Source: an uncultured bacterium (GTDB taxonomy: Bacteria > Patescibacteriota > Minisyncoccia > Phycocordibacterales > CAIZLB01). From it: a stretch of 40,249 bases of DNA. This document shows positions 7,006-25,777 of the stretch, one piece after another. The notes beneath the pieces are model-generated. The model was not told the origin of the DNA. It did no database searches and saw nothing but the letters and a program-made list of their open reading frames with translations. The DNA lies in contig CAIZLB010000028.1 of assembly GCA_903933735.1 (NCBI GenBank), forward strand, positions 1 through 40,249, in the 5' to 3' direction. Position 1 is the first letter of the stretch. Every line of letters begins with the position of its first letter. Position numbers and translations under genes: made by a program.

Positions 7006-7088
7006 CTTGAGTGTTTCTTCGGATTTTCTTTATCAGGACTTTATGTAGGTTTTGGTAAAATTCTTGAATCACGACAAACATAATCACA

Positions 7089-7481
7089 ATTAAAAAACTA
7101 GTATATGAATATTTCTATCTAGAAAAAGGTGAGTTAATCGCCAACTTTTTAGGGTTAGTATTTGTTTGTGAATTAGATAATAAAGATGTATATATCTCAA
7201 AAAGAGCATTAAAGCATTTTGTAGAGAGTAGGTCTGGAGAATCATTGGGGTGTGATGATGAGTATATTTTAAGTAGATTGTATTTAATTATAGATAATAT
7301 AGAAAATGTATTAACAAATTATGATTTATTTGAAAAAATGAATAACAGACTTTATTTATCTAAAGATTTTACTTTAAGTAATAGATTGATACCAATCATT
7401 AGAATAGTCATAGAAAATGTGGATAATCACTTTGAAATAGTAACTATGCATTATAAGAAAATTAAAAACACCACTGAATAA
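7089..7481 (+). CDS. Putative BECR-like nuclease, copy 1, non-ATG start
   Basis: The frame has 130 codons and is paralogous to 10741-11133 at the same length. No in-frame ATG precedes the conserved region. In both copies the alignable region begins ATT-AAA-AAA after an A/C-rich leader, so ATT may be the start; the next in-frame ATG (7245) would discard 52 conserved residues. Conserved features are ISKRALKHFVESRS (about 40-53) and DNHFEIVTMHYKK near the C-terminus. The Lys/Arg-His helix and the final F-x-x-V-T strand recall barnase/EndoU/colicin/RelE (BECR) nucleases. That assignment is my inference, not a clear match. An extended -10 box (TTGGTAAAAT) lies about 30 nt upstream. The 3' end overlaps the terminator of the convergent RNA at 7462-7620. 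Confidence 0.55.
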   Translation: MKKLVYEYFYLEKGELIANFLGLVFVCELDNKDVYISKRALKHFVESRSGESLGCDDEYILSRLYLIIDNIENVLTNYDLFEKMNNRLYLSKDFTLSNRLIPIIRIVIENVDNHFEIVTMHYKKIKNTTE

Positions 7482-7625: not shown

Positions 7626-7653
7626 ATTTTAGCAAAATATATTTTATTGTCAA
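7626..7653 (-). promoter_or_regulatory. Promoter of structured RNA member 1
   Basis: On the minus strand, TTGACA (7648-7653), 16 bp, then TAAAAT (7626-7631). The promoter of copy 2 (11268-11295) is base-for-base the same across both boxes and the spacer. Confidence 0.75.
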
Positions 7654-7848: not shown

Positions 7849-7947
7849 TATATATATTAGCAAATTTAAAAATCATGTCAGATTTACCCCATAAAAAACC
7901 CCACTAGACAATGTAATTTTTCTTATTAAATGGTATTATATGGAAAT

Positions 7948-10682: not shown

Positions 10683-10740
10683 TACGAAAACTTTATACGG
10701 TGTTTGGTAAAATCTGTAAATTGATACAAAAATAAATACA

Positions 10741-11133
10741 ATTAAAAAATTGATAGATGAATACTTGCATCTTAAAAAAGGTGAATTAATTGCTGATTTT
10801 TTAGAGTTAATATTTGTATGTAAATTAAATGATAGGGATGTATGTATATCAAAGAGATCTTTAAAACACTTTGTAGAGAGTAGATCTGGCGAATTGCTTG
10901 AGTATAATAATGAATATATTTTAGAAAGACTCTATTTTATTATAGATAATATAAAAAATGTATTACATAACAGTGATTTTTATAAAGTGATTGAAAAGAG
11001 ATTTTATTACACTAAAGATTTCTTTTATCCTATACGACCATCAATTCGAATTGTTTTAGAAAGCATTAATGATCATTTCGAAATAGTTACAATGCATTAT
11101 AAAAAAACTAAAAACACTACCCAAAAAGAGTAG
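10741..11133 (+). CDS. Putative BECR-like nuclease, copy 2, non-ATG start
   Basis: The frame has 130 codons, the same length as the copy at 7089-7481, with clear identity through most of its length: KGELIA-F, ISKRSLKHFVESRSGE, EYILERLYFIIDNI and HFEIVTMHYKK. There is no ATG. Either the shared ATT (10741) or the TTG three codons later (10750) would start it. The upstream block (CTTTATAC, GGT, TTGGTAAAAT) is also shared with copy 1, so promoter, ORF and RNA were duplicated together. A weak start codon is common in toxin genes, but nothing here proves toxicity. The nuclease fold is inferred from a short motif pattern only. Confidence 0.55.
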   Translation: MKKLIDEYLHLKKGELIADFLELIFVCKLNDRDVCISKRSLKHFVESRSGELLEYNNEYILERLYFIIDNIKNVLHNSDFYKVIEKRFYYTKDFFYPIRPSIRIVLESINDHFEIVTMHYKKTKNTTQKE

Positions 11134-21800: not shown

Positions 21801-23996
21801 TTACTTCTTCTCTTTCTTCTGAAACCCTCTAGGTTTCTTCGGTGTATTTAAGAGCTCCAATGCTTCATCCAGTGTTACTTTATAAACATCTTGAGTCTTG
21901 AGTGATCTAAAATCTCTCTCACAACCTACATATGGTCCAAAACGTCCTTTGTTCGCTATAACTTCTTTTCCATTGCCTGGATTGATACCAAGCACTCTGG
22001 GTAATGATAGATAAAGCAAAGCCTGTTCCATGGTTACATTGGTTAGATCAGATTCTTTTGGAATACTAGCCATGCGAGGTTTTTTATTTTCCTTAGTCTT
22101 CTCACCAAGTTGTACATAAGGACCAAAACGACCTGTCTTTACATATATAGGAAGGGAAGTTGTAGGATCTATTCCTATAGGTTCATCTGCTTTTATCTCA
22201 ACTCCATCTATAGTCAAAGCCCCGTCACATTCTGGAAAATTGGAACATGATAAGAACTTACCATTGCGTGAAAGTTTAACTATCATAGAGCCTTTACATT
22301 TTGGACATTTGAAATCAGAATGTCCGAGATCTGTTATCTTAGCACTGGTACTTTTTTCTTTTACTTCTTTTGAAAATGGTCCATAGAAATCTTTCAAAGT
22401 TTGTAGATACTTAACTTCACCGTTCGATATGAGATCGAGTTTGTCTTCCATCTCTGAGGTGAAAGAATCACTTATGTAGTTGGTAAAATTTTCTTCTAAG
22501 AAACTAGATACAACGTCTCCTGTGTCTGTTGGTTTTAAAGCGCGGCCAAGTTTCTCAACATATTGTCTGTCTTCAAGTGTTCGCATGATTGATGCGAAAG
22601 TCGAAGGACGTCCTATGCCTCTTTTATCAAGTTCTTTGATAAGTCCCGCTTCAGTGTATCGACTTGGTGGTTCTGTGAATTTTTCAATATTTTCTATAGA
22701 TACAAAGTTTATATCAGCACCTTTTTTAAGTGCTGGAACTGTGACATCTTCACCAGCTGATTCTGGGTCTGCTATAAGCCATCCATCAAAAAGTATACGA
22801 GATCCGTTTAGAGAAAATTCTGGAAAATTCTCTTTTTTATAATCCTTGATCGATGCAGTTATCTTAGTTCTAAGTGTTAAAGCATCAGACATCTGTGAAG
22901 ATAATGTTCTGTTGTGTATAAGTCTATAAAGTTTTTTCTCATCCTCTGCAAGACCTGCGTTTATCTTTTTTATATCAGATGGTCTTATAGCTTCATGGGC
23001 TTCTTGAGCGTTTTTAACTTTTGAAGCAAAGTTTTTTGTATCTAAGTATTTTTTATCATAATTTTTTGTTATAAATGCTGCAATCGAATCAAGAGCTTGT
23101 TTACTTAAACTTGTACTATCAGTTCTCATATATGTTATATGACCTTGCTCATATAGTTTTTGAGCTGCGCGCATAGTTCTTGATGGGGAAAATCCAAGGC
23201 GAGTTGAAGCGACTTGTTGAAGAGTTGATGTGATAAATGGGGCACGAGAAGCTCTTTTAACTTCAGTTTCGGTTATGTCTAATATGGTCCAGGTATTTTT
23301 ATTTTGCTCTGCTTTTTCTACTATAGTTTCTGCTCTTTTTTTATCTTTTATTTCTTCATTACATGTAAACTTGAGAATATCTTTTTTTGATTCTGATAGA
23401 TTTGCATATAAAACATAATAAGCTTCTGGTATGAAAGCACGTATTTCTCTTTCTCTCTCCATAACTATACGAAGTGCAGGGGATTGTACACGACCTGCTG
23501 ATAATCCATATCTTACTTTTTTCCAGATGAGTCCTGAGAGATCGTAACCCACAAGGCGGTCCAGAACGCGACGAGCTTCTTGGGCTCGAAACATATTCAT
23601 ATCTATTTTACGTGGATGGGCCATGGCATAGAGTACCGCTTCCTTGGTTATCTCGTTATAAGTGATACGTTTTGGATCTTTAAGCTGTAAAACCTCTTTA
23701 AGATGCCATGCGATAGCCTCTCCTTCACGGTCTGCATCTGGAGCCAGCCAGACATCGTCTACCTTATGAAGTGCTTGTTCAAGGTCATGTATAACCTTCT
23801 CCTTTCCTTTGGAAACTTCATAGTGGGGGATAAAACCACCTTCTATATCAACAGCCTTTTTGTTTGATTTTGGCAGGTCTCTAATGTGTCCCACGGATGA
23901 CATGACGATATAGTCAGAACCTAGGAATGCTTCCAGTTTCTTGATTTTTGAAGGTGACTCAACAATAACTAAATGTTTACTCATGCATATAGTCAT
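21801..23996 (-). CDS. topA: DNA topoisomerase I
   Basis: The protein has 731 residues. The TOPRIM domain starts at LVIVESPSKIKKLEAFLG and has the acidic triad in APDADREGEAIAWHL. The cleavage domain shows KVRYGLSAGRVQSPALR, and the catalytic tyrosine is in GHITYMRTDS. A four-cysteine zinc finger (CPKCKGSMIV...CSNFPEC) and two C-terminal TopA repeats (GRFGPYV) follow. It relaxes negative supercoils. The minus-strand box TATATA/TATAGT lies 5-7 nt before the first ATG (23996), and a second ATG (MSKHL) follows four codons on. Confidence 0.97.
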   Translation of the reverse strand: MTICMSKHLVIVESPSKIKKLEAFLGSDYIVMSSVGHIRDLPKSNKKAVDIEGGFIPHYEVSKGKEKVIHDLEQALHKVDDVWLAPDADREGEAIAWHLKEVLQLKDPKRITYNEITKEAVLYAMAHPRKIDMNMFRAQEARRVLDRLVGYDLSGLIWKKVRYGLSAGRVQSPALRIVMEREREIRAFIPEAYYVLYANLSESKKDILKFTCNEEIKDKKRAETIVEKAEQNKNTWTILDITETEVKRASRAPFITSTLQQVASTRLGFSPSRTMRAAQKLYEQGHITYMRTDSTSLSKQALDSIAAFITKNYDKKYLDTKNFASKVKNAQEAHEAIRPSDIKKINAGLAEDEKKLYRLIHNRTLSSQMSDALTLRTKITASIKDYKKENFPEFSLNGSRILFDGWLIADPESAGEDVTVPALKKGADINFVSIENIEKFTEPPSRYTEAGLIKELDKRGIGRPSTFASIMRTLEDRQYVEKLGRALKPTDTGDVVSSFLEENFTNYISDSFTSEMEDKLDLISNGEVKYLQTLKDFYGPFSKEVKEKSTSAKITDLGHSDFKCPKCKGSMIVKLSRNGKFLSCSNFPECDGALTIDGVEIKADEPIGIDPTTSLPIYVKTGRFGPYVQLGEKTKENKKPRMASIPKESDLTNVTMEQALLYLSLPRVLGINPGNGKEVIANKGRFGPYVGCERDFRSLKTQDVYKVTLDEALELLNTPKKPRGFQKKEKK

Positions 23997-24037: not shown

Positions 24038-24083
24038 TAAAAAAATTACCGTCCGCACCCCTTGTTGAAGGGGGTGCGAACGG
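24038..24083 (-). terminator. Very strong terminator of the 24.1-kb RNA
   Basis: CCGTTCGCACCCC pairs with GGGGTGCGGACGG (13 bp, one G-T), followed by TAATTTTTTT. Confidence 0.85.
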
Positions 24084-24196
24084 CTTGCGGACCGGCGTCT
24101 GCGACCTTATGGTCGGGAGTTTTCCCCCGAGGTCCTCAGATGTCCGCTGCGAGGCAGTCAATTGTATTTTTATTGTGGCTCTTGGCCATGTGCTAT
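24038..24196 (-). ncRNA. Structured RNA A, with 17-codon leaderless micro-ORF
   Basis: This minus-strand RNA of about 155 nt is much more GC-rich than its surroundings. GCGGAC (24142-24147) pairs with GTCCGC (24087-24092) and encloses a TCTG/CAGA helix and two hairpins, CGGGGG-AAAA-CTCCCG (24114-24129) and GACC-ATAA-GGTC (24103-24114), which share one boundary base. It ends in a 13-bp terminator. An ATG (24189), 7 nt after the -10 box, opens a 17-codon frame (MAKSHNKNTIDCLAADI) ending at 24136. It is either a leaderless micro-ORF or chance. The structure is not one I recognise. Confidence 0.65.
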
Positions 24197-24224
24197 ATAA
24201 TAGCACAATATGAAATTATGTCAA
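24197..24224 (-). promoter_or_regulatory. Promoter of RNA A
   Basis: On the minus strand, TTGACA (24219-24224), 16 bp, TATTAT (24197-24202). The block around the -35, AATCGCTTGACATAA, is repeated at the promoter of RNA B. Confidence 0.75.
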
Positions 24225-24231
24225 GCGATTG

Positions 24232-24592
24232 TAAAAAAAAACATCCCTCACCCCGACGATCTAGGCCTTTTGAGGGGCTTTGCAGGGTGAAGGAATAAGT
24301 TGTTCCATTCGATTGTTAGTCTGATCGATCAGAGGTCGGTAGAATGGTATTTACCAGTTGCTGATCGTCGCGAAATCCAATATCATCACTTTGATGTACA
24401 AACTTCGCGAAAGCGGGGTTTTCGAGAGCTAATTTATGTCATAGCGCCGGCTCTCTGGAATTAAGAGGCGCTTACAGAGACTGAATGTTCATAGGTTTGG
24501 GGTGTTGAGGTATTTGGTTCGTGTTGGTCGGCGTGGCGGGGGGGCTGAGTGTTCAAACTAGCCTGACCGCCGTCTGTTGATTTAAAACCGAC
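24232..24592 (-). ncRNA. Large structured RNA B with two H-type pseudoknots
   Basis: This minus-strand RNA of about 355 nt has its own promoter and terminator. Pseudoknot 1: 24424-24429 with 24450-24455 (GAGAGC/GCTCTC) crossed by 24443-24448 with 24467-24472 (AGCGCC/GGCGCT). Pseudoknot 2: 24305-24310 with 24342-24347 crossed by 24326-24332 with 24361-24367. Between them is a 7-bp stem, 24368-24374 with 24404-24410. A 5' domain has GGCGG/CCGCC. An A/C-rich, almost G-free stretch (24494-24530) leads to ATG and a six-codon frame, MNIQSL, that stops at pseudoknot 1. It lacks tRNA-like ends, so it is not ordinary tmRNA, and it has no RNase P signature. Confidence 0.65.
24240..24292 (-). terminator. 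Terminator of RNA B
   Basis: CTTCACCC (24285-24292) pairs with GGGTGAGG (24246-24253), followed by GATGTTTTTTTTT. A GCC/GGC hairpin lies inside. Confidence 0.65.
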
Positions 24593-24598
24593 TTAAGT

Positions 24599-24627
24599 AT
24601 AGTAGCATACCACTACCTTTATGTCAA
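24599..24627 (-). promoter_or_regulatory. Promoter of RNA B
   Basis: On the minus strand, TTGACA (24622-24627), 17 bp, TACTAT (24599-24604). The upstream flank matches the promoter of RNA A. Confidence 0.75.
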
Positions 24628-24649: not shown

Positions 24650-24691
24650 ATGCAAGAAAAGAGACCTGTCGGAGGGTTGCTCCGGCAGGTC
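24650..24691 (-). terminator. Terminator of the 24839-24979 transcript
   Basis: GACCTGCCGGAG pairs with CTCCGACAGGTC (12 bp, one wobble) around CAACC, followed by TCTTTTCTT. Confidence 0.8.
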
Positions 24692-24838
24692 CATGATGCA
24701 TATCCAAATTCTGTTAAAACACGATACATGGGCTATCGTGGAAGAATACCATTTATCTTTGCGCCCGGATTCTTCAAAGGCGCGTTTTAAATGAAGGCTT
24801 TCATGTCTTTCTGTATCAATGATGCGCAGCGGGCCTTG
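24692..24838 (-). other. Structured 3' UTR of the small gene
   Basis: Between the TAG stop and the terminator, the minus strand has a CACGATA/TATCGTG hairpin followed by TTTTAAC and a GCGCC/GGCGC hairpin. The frame of the small gene stays open past its TAG for about 68 codons. This may be chance or mark a longer ancestral gene. Confidence 0.4.
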
Positions 24839-24979
24839 CTACTGATTGTCGGCGATGTTGTTGTCGGCGGCGATGCAGATGACCGTCTTGGCTTTGGTCA
24901 ATTGCGTCGTGGTCGTGATGGCGATGATCGCTTTGGTGGTGTGGCCGCGGATTGGCGGCCGATTCGGTGCATTCGTCAT
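24839..24979 (-). CDS. Small Thr/Ala-rich protein
   Basis: The protein has 46 residues, MTNAPNRPPIRG then a Thr/Ile/Ala-rich middle (TTKAIIAITTTTQL) and an acidic end. There is no known domain. The evidence is a promoter, an A/C-rich leader (AACACAACACAAACCAG) like those of other short genes here, an ATG, and a strong downstream terminator. It is GC-rich compared with its surroundings. A longer frame on the opposite strand (24791-25075) and another on this strand are less likely because they lack such signals. Confidence 0.5.
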   Translation of the reverse strand: MTNAPNRPPIRGHTTKAIIAITTTTQLTKAKTVICIAADNNIADNQ

Positions 24980-25052
24980 ATGCTTGTCTGGTTTGTGTTG
25001 TGTTACTTAGGTCAGCACGTGATTCGTAAATCTCCAATGTGCTACATAAAAA

Positions 25053-25081
25053 ATATTACACCCAATAAAAAATAAATGCAA
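25053..25081 (-). promoter_or_regulatory. Promoter of the 24839-24979 gene
   Basis: On the minus strand, TTGCAT (25076-25081), 17 bp, TAATAT (25053-25058) with an upstream TG. It begins right after the dprA stop codon. The leader contains an AGCAC/GTGCT hairpin. Confidence 0.6.
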
Positions 25082-25777
25082 CTATTTTTTATAGATATCC
25101 ACACCATATACCATCGCCAATTGCATCAACATGCCTCTCAGTGTTTCTAGACTGATCATGATCTTCGCCCCTCTATCTATAAGATCATTTGTACCTTGTG
25201 AATTTCTTGAAAATATATTACCTGGCACACTCAAAACCTCACGATTATAATCAATAGCCAAGTTCGCTGTTATAAGTGTACCCGATTTTTCTTCAGCCTC
25301 AACAACTATAGTCATATGAGATAAACCAGCCATCAAACGATTCCTCACCGGAAAAGTCCAAAGACTGGACCGAGTCTGCGGCTCAAACTCATTCACCACA
25401 AGTCCTCCATGATCCAATATCTCATGTTTAAGATCAAGATGGGCTCTAGGATAGAAAAAATCATCATCTATACCGGATCCTGGTATAGCTATAGTCTTGA
25501 TATCATGTTTTATAGATAAAGTATGTACTAGCCCGTCTATACCATAAGCAGCACCAGACACTGTTATCACATTGAAATCTTTCAAGAACTCTATAATATG
25601 CTCTGTCACCTGTATACCATAAGGTGAAGCTTTTCTAGGTCCTACAATACATATATATAGATGCTTTTCTCGAAGTAGATCGATATCACCCTCATAAAAT
25701 AACCTTGTTGGTTTATCAGGTATATTGTTTATGAGCTCGTTTAGACTATTTATATTTTTTATTTCTTTTGTATTCAT
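25082..25777 (-). CDS. dprA: DNA-processing protein DprA (short form)
   Basis: The protein has 231 residues, only the Rossmann-like DprA core. It has YICIVGPRKASPYG, VSGAAYGIDGLVHTLSI, PGSGIDDDFFYPRAH and VVVEAEEKSGTLITA. The N-terminal SAM and C-terminal winged-helix domains of longer DprAs are missing. DprA binds incoming single-stranded DNA and loads RecA during transformation. With the type IV pilin this supports natural competence. A TATAAT box lies about 8 nt before the ATG. Confidence 0.92.
   Translation of the reverse strand: MNTKEIKNINSLNELINNIPDKPTRLFYEGDIDLLREKHLYICIVGPRKASPYGIQVTEHIIEFLKDFNVITVSGAAYGIDGLVHTLSIKHDIKTIAIPGSGIDDDFFYPRAHLDLKHEILDHGGLVVNEFEPQTRSSLWTFPVRNRLMAGLSHMTIVVEAEEKSGTLITANLAIDYNREVLSVPGNIFSRNSQGTNDLIDRGAKIMISLETLRGMLMQLAMVYGVDIYKK

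Follow-up and report, generated by a model that had tools for sequence, protein, structure and literature searches.

Several families of large non-coding bacterial RNAs, including ROOL, GOLLD, OLE, and raiA, were defined by conserved structure. To our knowledge, few non-coding RNAs have been described from candidate-phyla bacteria. Here, we describe an RNA unit, RNA1, in a 40,249-nt stretch of DNA, hereafter the window, which is contig 28 of a 0.82-Mb genome assembled in 57 contigs. The genome is a candidate-phyla MAG, Nomurabacteria/Parcubacteria-like, and its TopA is 88% identical to those of its two nearest named relatives, a Nomurabacteria and a Parcubacteria MAG. We find that a small, free-standing, and strongly folded RNA gene probably lies between dprA and topA.

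Results

In the window, dprA (25082–25777, minus strand) and topA (21801–23996, minus strand) are separated by a 1,085-bp spacer, and the same gene order is repeated in the large majority of relatives for which the topA neighbourhood is available. In this genus, DprA is without the C-terminal winged-helix extension that the dprA-topA spacers of other families show. The minus strand of the spacer holds three small units in succession, and RNA1, a minus-strand unit of ~355 nt, is the middle one. Its promoter (24627–24599) consists of TTGACA (24627–24622), a 17-nt spacer, and an extended –10 box, TGcTACTAT, from which the transcript would be expected to start near 24592. Its intrinsic terminator (24294–24233) has a 12-bp stem with a side hairpin (24294–24244) followed by a T9 run to 24233, and this segment folds at –22.4 kcal/mol. 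The promoter and terminator that a preliminary description had placed around an RNA of this length are thus both present. G+C content is 42–50% across most of the unit, as compared with 31–42% in most neighbouring coding windows.

The promoter style of RNA1 also precedes a conserved RNA of ~250 nt at four loci in other genomes (L002, L003, L004, and L006, at G001:C1:23420, G008:C7, G013:C18, and G005:C1, respectively), none of which gives an Rfam match at the gathering threshold. The terminal stem of this RNA (AAATCTCTAAGC...GCTTAGAGATTTAAA) is long, its core reads GGACGTTCTGGTGCGGGC..., and its shape is 6S-like; it has only the promoter in common with RNA1.

Taken as a whole, RNA1 folds at –95.7 kcal/mol, with a z-score of –3.4 against dinucleotide shuffles, and 0 of 100 shuffles folded as well. 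In the predicted layout, a hairpin domain at the 5′ end is followed by an A/C-rich linker that stays unpaired, then by a multibranched 3′ domain and the terminator. In the 5′ domain (24527–24592, –22.9 kcal/mol), a GUCGGU...GCCGAC helix surrounds GGCGG/CCGCC and a hairpin inside it, and the linker covers 24493–24526. Downstream, two candidate H-type pseudoknots (24424–24472 and 24305–24367) flank a long near-perfect hairpin, UCGCGAAGUU...GAUUUCGCGA (24368–24410). Structure prediction from a single sequence is weak or no evidence of functional structure (PMC8250186).

The two pairs of perfect crossing helices reported in the preliminary description are exact in the sequence and have H-type order. 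In pseudoknot 1, helix S1 (AGCGCC/GGCGCU, 24472–24467 with 24448–24443) crosses helix S2 (GAGAGC/GCUCUC, 24455–24450 with 24429–24424) with loops of 11, 1, and 13; in pseudoknot 2, CGAUCAG/CUGAUCG (24367–24361 with 24332–24326) crosses CCAUUC/GAAUGG (24347–24342 with 24310–24305) with loops of 13, 9, and 15. Each pair thus has, at the level of sequence only, the two crossing helices and permissible loops of an H-type pseudoknot. When all crossing pairs of perfect helices in RNA1 were listed exhaustively and ranked by stacking energy, pair 1 was the strongest (–26.8 kcal/mol) and pair 2 ranked third (–22.1 kcal/mol). As controls, we used 400 dinucleotide-preserving shuffles and 220 segments of the window having the length of RNA1. 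The best single pair was equalled in 0.75% of the shuffles, and two disjoint pairs as strong as those of RNA1 were found in 0.25% of the shuffles and in 0 of the 220 segments. Some two disjoint H-type pairs, of whatever strength, are present in 10% of the segments, real sequence being richer in them than shuffles. Nested folds would compete with both pseudoknots: the first S2 strand of pseudoknot 1 can extend S1 into a nested hairpin of –11.7 kcal/mol, and GAAUG (24310–24306) in the 3′ strand of S2 of pseudoknot 2 can pair with CAUUC (24487–24483), closing the whole 3′ domain. We consider both pseudoknots plausible. The promoter, the helix-pair statistics, and the fold z-score together support the earlier view that a promoter and a terminator enclose a structured RNA that is self-contained.

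Searches for relatives of RNA1 by blastn covered the 60 nearest genomes, 397 genomes of the order, and 384 of the class, including both congeners (G001 and G002), and no relative was found; the matches were only 15–54 nt long, and those near the promoter reflect promoter similarity. A covariance model built from the 3′ core of RNA1, as a single sequence, recovered only RNA1 itself in 99 genomes (a hit in G021 at E 0.94 is at chance level). Phages and plasmids yielded one 39-bp chance match, and three exact-pattern scans of viral contigs yielded nothing. Such searches can detect RNAs of this kind: for a 167-nt RNA of the same window, they returned a copy in G002 at 81% and a paralogue at 77%. 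In the collections searched, RNA1 occurs only in this species, with no homologue from which covariation could be read.

The preliminary description had also proposed comparing the topA-dprA spacers of related genomes. The spacers of both congeners do contain small promoter-terminator units, but none is orthologous to RNA1 (over 15 comparisons, its lowest p was 0.007, which is not significant), and the pseudoknots are therefore without evolutionary support. Homology links unit 2 of G001 and unit 1 of G002 (z 11.3). RNA2 (24039–24224, minus strand), which lies between RNA1 and topA, shows a short, weak similarity to the topA-proximal unit 2 of G001 (z 3.7). RNA2 has a promoter at 24224–24197 with a perfect inverted repeat, TGTGCTA-TTATA-TAGCACA, across the –10 box, a leaderless-type 17-codon ATG frame at 24189, a terminator at 24084–24039, and a fold z-score of about –5.5. 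The upstream unit (24660–25080, minus strand) holds a 46-aa ATG frame (24979–24839) and a terminator-like hairpin (24660–24690). This frame has no Pfam or PHROG match; it has an A/C-rich leader and, in an AT-rich genome, strongly GC-rich codons, rich in Thr, Ala, and Ile. We conclude that the turnover of small promoter-terminator units is fast in the dprA-topA spacer and that RNA1 is one among them.

We hold with moderate confidence that RNA1 is a lineage-specific, self-contained structured sRNA unit, most likely trans-acting and sRNA-like; it has its own promoter and terminator and a fold more stable than shuffles, as is asked of an orphan structured sRNA. Its transcription would be driven by a strong sigma70-type promoter and ended by the intrinsic terminator, and its 3′ domain could fold into several branches and two H-type pseudoknots. 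The folded 3′ domain and the terminator would protect the RNA, and the unpaired A/C-rich linker would offer an accessible contact surface for a ribosome or an mRNA partner. Action in trans, as is the way of many lineage-specific sRNAs, is a guess at how it might work. In a second reading, RNA1 is fast-turnover DNA of the spacer, transient or without function, in which a promoter and a terminator have arisen by chance and which is well folded because it happens to be richer in G+C. RNA1 is wholly absent from the congeners and from every genome searched, and the units upstream and downstream of it are likewise lineage-specific, as this reading would have it. However, a near-consensus extended promoter and a long T9 terminator exactly frame the fold, and the fold excess was measured with dinucleotide composition controlled, so we regard spacer DNA as a rather unlikely explanation.

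We also considered whether RNA1 is translated. Five ATGs in RNA1 open frames of 6, 2, 11, 15, and 7 codons. The first of these lengths belongs to ATG-N15-TAA (24492–24472, MNIQSL*), which had been described as stopping at a pseudoknot strand. The frame exists, codons 3–6 double as the 5′ strand of the predicted closing helix, and the TAA shares one base (24472) with helix S1 of pseudoknot 1, but it is ordinary among frames of 15 codons or fewer and is at chance level. The leader is another matter: the 40 nt upstream of ATG 24492 are 85% A+C, a value attained at 0.05% of window positions and the highest among the 41 starts listed. Leadered genes of this genome have A/C-rich, G-poor leaders, many other genes being leaderless, and the earlier comparison with the leaders of real genes was sound. 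Of the suggestion that RNA1 encodes a leader peptide or is a translated regulatory RNA, what stands is this leader alone; the frame is of chance-level length, no homologue shows conservation, and the leader peptide is unproven. By inspection, CACCCC in the linker could pair with GGGGUG in the terminator, as might be expected of an attenuator upstream of a regulated gene, but the unit that follows carries a promoter of its own. An open stretch in frame, HKLALENPAFAKFVHQSDDIGFRDDQQLVNTILPTSDRSD, looks protein-like, but no relative of it was found in Pfam, PHROG, or plasmids, and we rejected a decayed gene.

In a third reading, RNA1 is the mRNA of a small protein, with its A/C-rich leader acting as the ribosome entry, free of a Shine-Dalgarno (SD) sequence, that this genome employs, its product being MNIQSL or that of a 31-aa TTG frame (24556–24461) and the rest a stable 3′ UTR. 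The leader composition matches that of leadered genes here, the upstream spacer unit has the same kind of leader before its 46-aa frame, and a congener's spacer unit carries an 8-codon ATG frame. Against this, the frame lengths are those of chance, Pfam and PHROG yielded no relative for any of the frames tested, and no homologue offers codon-level conservation, which makes a small-protein mRNA distinctly improbable. We think it very improbable indeed that RNA1 is a translation-gated switch, a sensor of ribosome activity without a tRNA-like domain. In such a switch, which is coherent as a hypothetical mechanism, a ribosome could enter at the SD-less, A/C-rich linker, translate MNIQSL through six codons that form one strand of the helix closing the 3′ domain, and halt at the foot of pseudoknot 1; at the TAA, it would remodel pseudoknot 1 and release GAAUG for pseudoknot 2.

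RNA1 has no match in Rfam at the gathering threshold and none credible at E ≤ 10, where a relaxed scan returned only SNORD102, CRISPR-DR27, and cow-rumen-3 at chance level (E 1.5–5.6); the Rfam search proposed earlier thus gave no family that would impose another fold. The models of ROOL, OLE, GOLLD, and raiA gave no match. RNase P class A, of which a genome has one copy, was rejected: its model does not match RNA1, and the best match in the genome lies at contig 14, 11094–11470 (88.9 bits, where the gathering score is 100). As the preliminary description had stated, there is no tRNA-like end: ARAGORN and Rfam find no tRNA-like acceptor/T arm joining two ends within 24232–24627. The tmRNAs of both congeners are canonical (118–129 bits with the same covariance model) and lie at another locus, and tmRNA was likewise rejected. 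The flank of a congener's tmRNA corresponds in this genome to a site on contig 41, whose end is 0.3 kb away, and the congener's next gene is absent from this assembly; the tmRNA of this genome is therefore most likely in an assembly gap. The length of RNA1 (~360 nt), its ORF, and its candidate pseudoknots might suggest a known large RNA that has diverged, such as tmRNA or RNase P, but this reading has next to no probability and is refuted within the sensitivity of the models used.

The window also holds two members of one structured RNA family, at 7653–7464 and 11295–11110 (minus strand), with their own promoter and terminator and absent from Rfam. A small promoter-terminator unit at 7881–7770 (minus strand), AGCAAGTTAGACCCTCGAAGAAGGACTGCC...TTCGAGGGTTTTGC, adjoins the copy at 7653. 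The core of the family is GACAGAAAAU..AAUCGGCUUGCUGCGGAC-hairpin-GUACUnAU-GGAUGAA..GCCGUCAUCC, and an invariant CGGC/GCCG pairing is a candidate pseudoknot. Searches with a model built from six members gave five copies in this genome (the two above and C52:22457–22578, C22:8274–8382, and C48:7235–7350) and others at G010:C31:3612–3715, G058:C8:120777–120886, G291:C3:49235–49342, and G184:C35:3623–3728; these copies span four families of the order, and the two weakest matches look like chance. With the copy at G002:C12:10546–10710, the total is ten loci in six genomes. Covariation is strong: 14 of 18 pairs have changed on both sides, and cells with two-sided change number 39, as compared with 16.5 in shuffles and 4–11 when the structure is slid along, counts that lean towards the model because the alignment was fitted to it.

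Genes of one protein family of 130–150 aa converge tail-to-tail on the RNA at nine of the ten loci, and at the tenth only a C-terminal remnant of the gene appears to be left. The family has the motif ISRRSLKHFVESR ... EICSIHF and no Pfam match. Its members in the window, of 136–137 aa (10720–11130 and 7071–7478, plus strand), are paralogues with 63% identity and no PDB match, conserved at S-[RK]2-x-[LI]-KH-x-VE-x-R and EI-x-[ST]-x-H-[FY]. AlphaFold predicts helices followed by a beta sheet at low confidence (pLDDT 54). The genes appear to have no ATG, GTG, or TTG start, the frame opening with ATT, ATC, or ACA, which suggests unusual starts or decay. The RNA and its convergent protein are a candidate toxin-antitoxin-like RNA-protein pair in Paceibacteria-type genomes.

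Discussion

The recurring, quickly replaced units of the dprA-topA spacer suggest a flux of lineage-specific RNAs even in genomes of 0.8 Mb. As a lead, the covariation-supported RNA/protein pair is stronger than RNA1. If the six-codon frame were translated, RNA1 would be a translation-sensing RNA of unusual simplicity.

Set beside described systems, RNA1 resembles tmRNA (RF00023) in size, in having several pseudoknots, here candidates, and in a short ORF that stops where a pseudoknot begins; unlike tmRNA, it has neither a tRNA-like domain nor a model match, and the tmRNA of the congeners is a separate gene. It is like ROOL, GOLLD, OLE, and raiA in its non-coding, multi-helix character and its putative pseudoknots, but it has no Rfam match or any conservation. 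RNA1 is also comparable to the orphan intergenic sRNA units, with which it shares an independent promoter, an intrinsic terminator, a structured body within the range of 100–400 nt, the absence of a conserved ORF, and rapid turnover, whereas it exceeds most of them in size, contains two candidate pseudoknots, and has an ATG preceded by a long linker that is A/C-rich and predicted to be unpaired.
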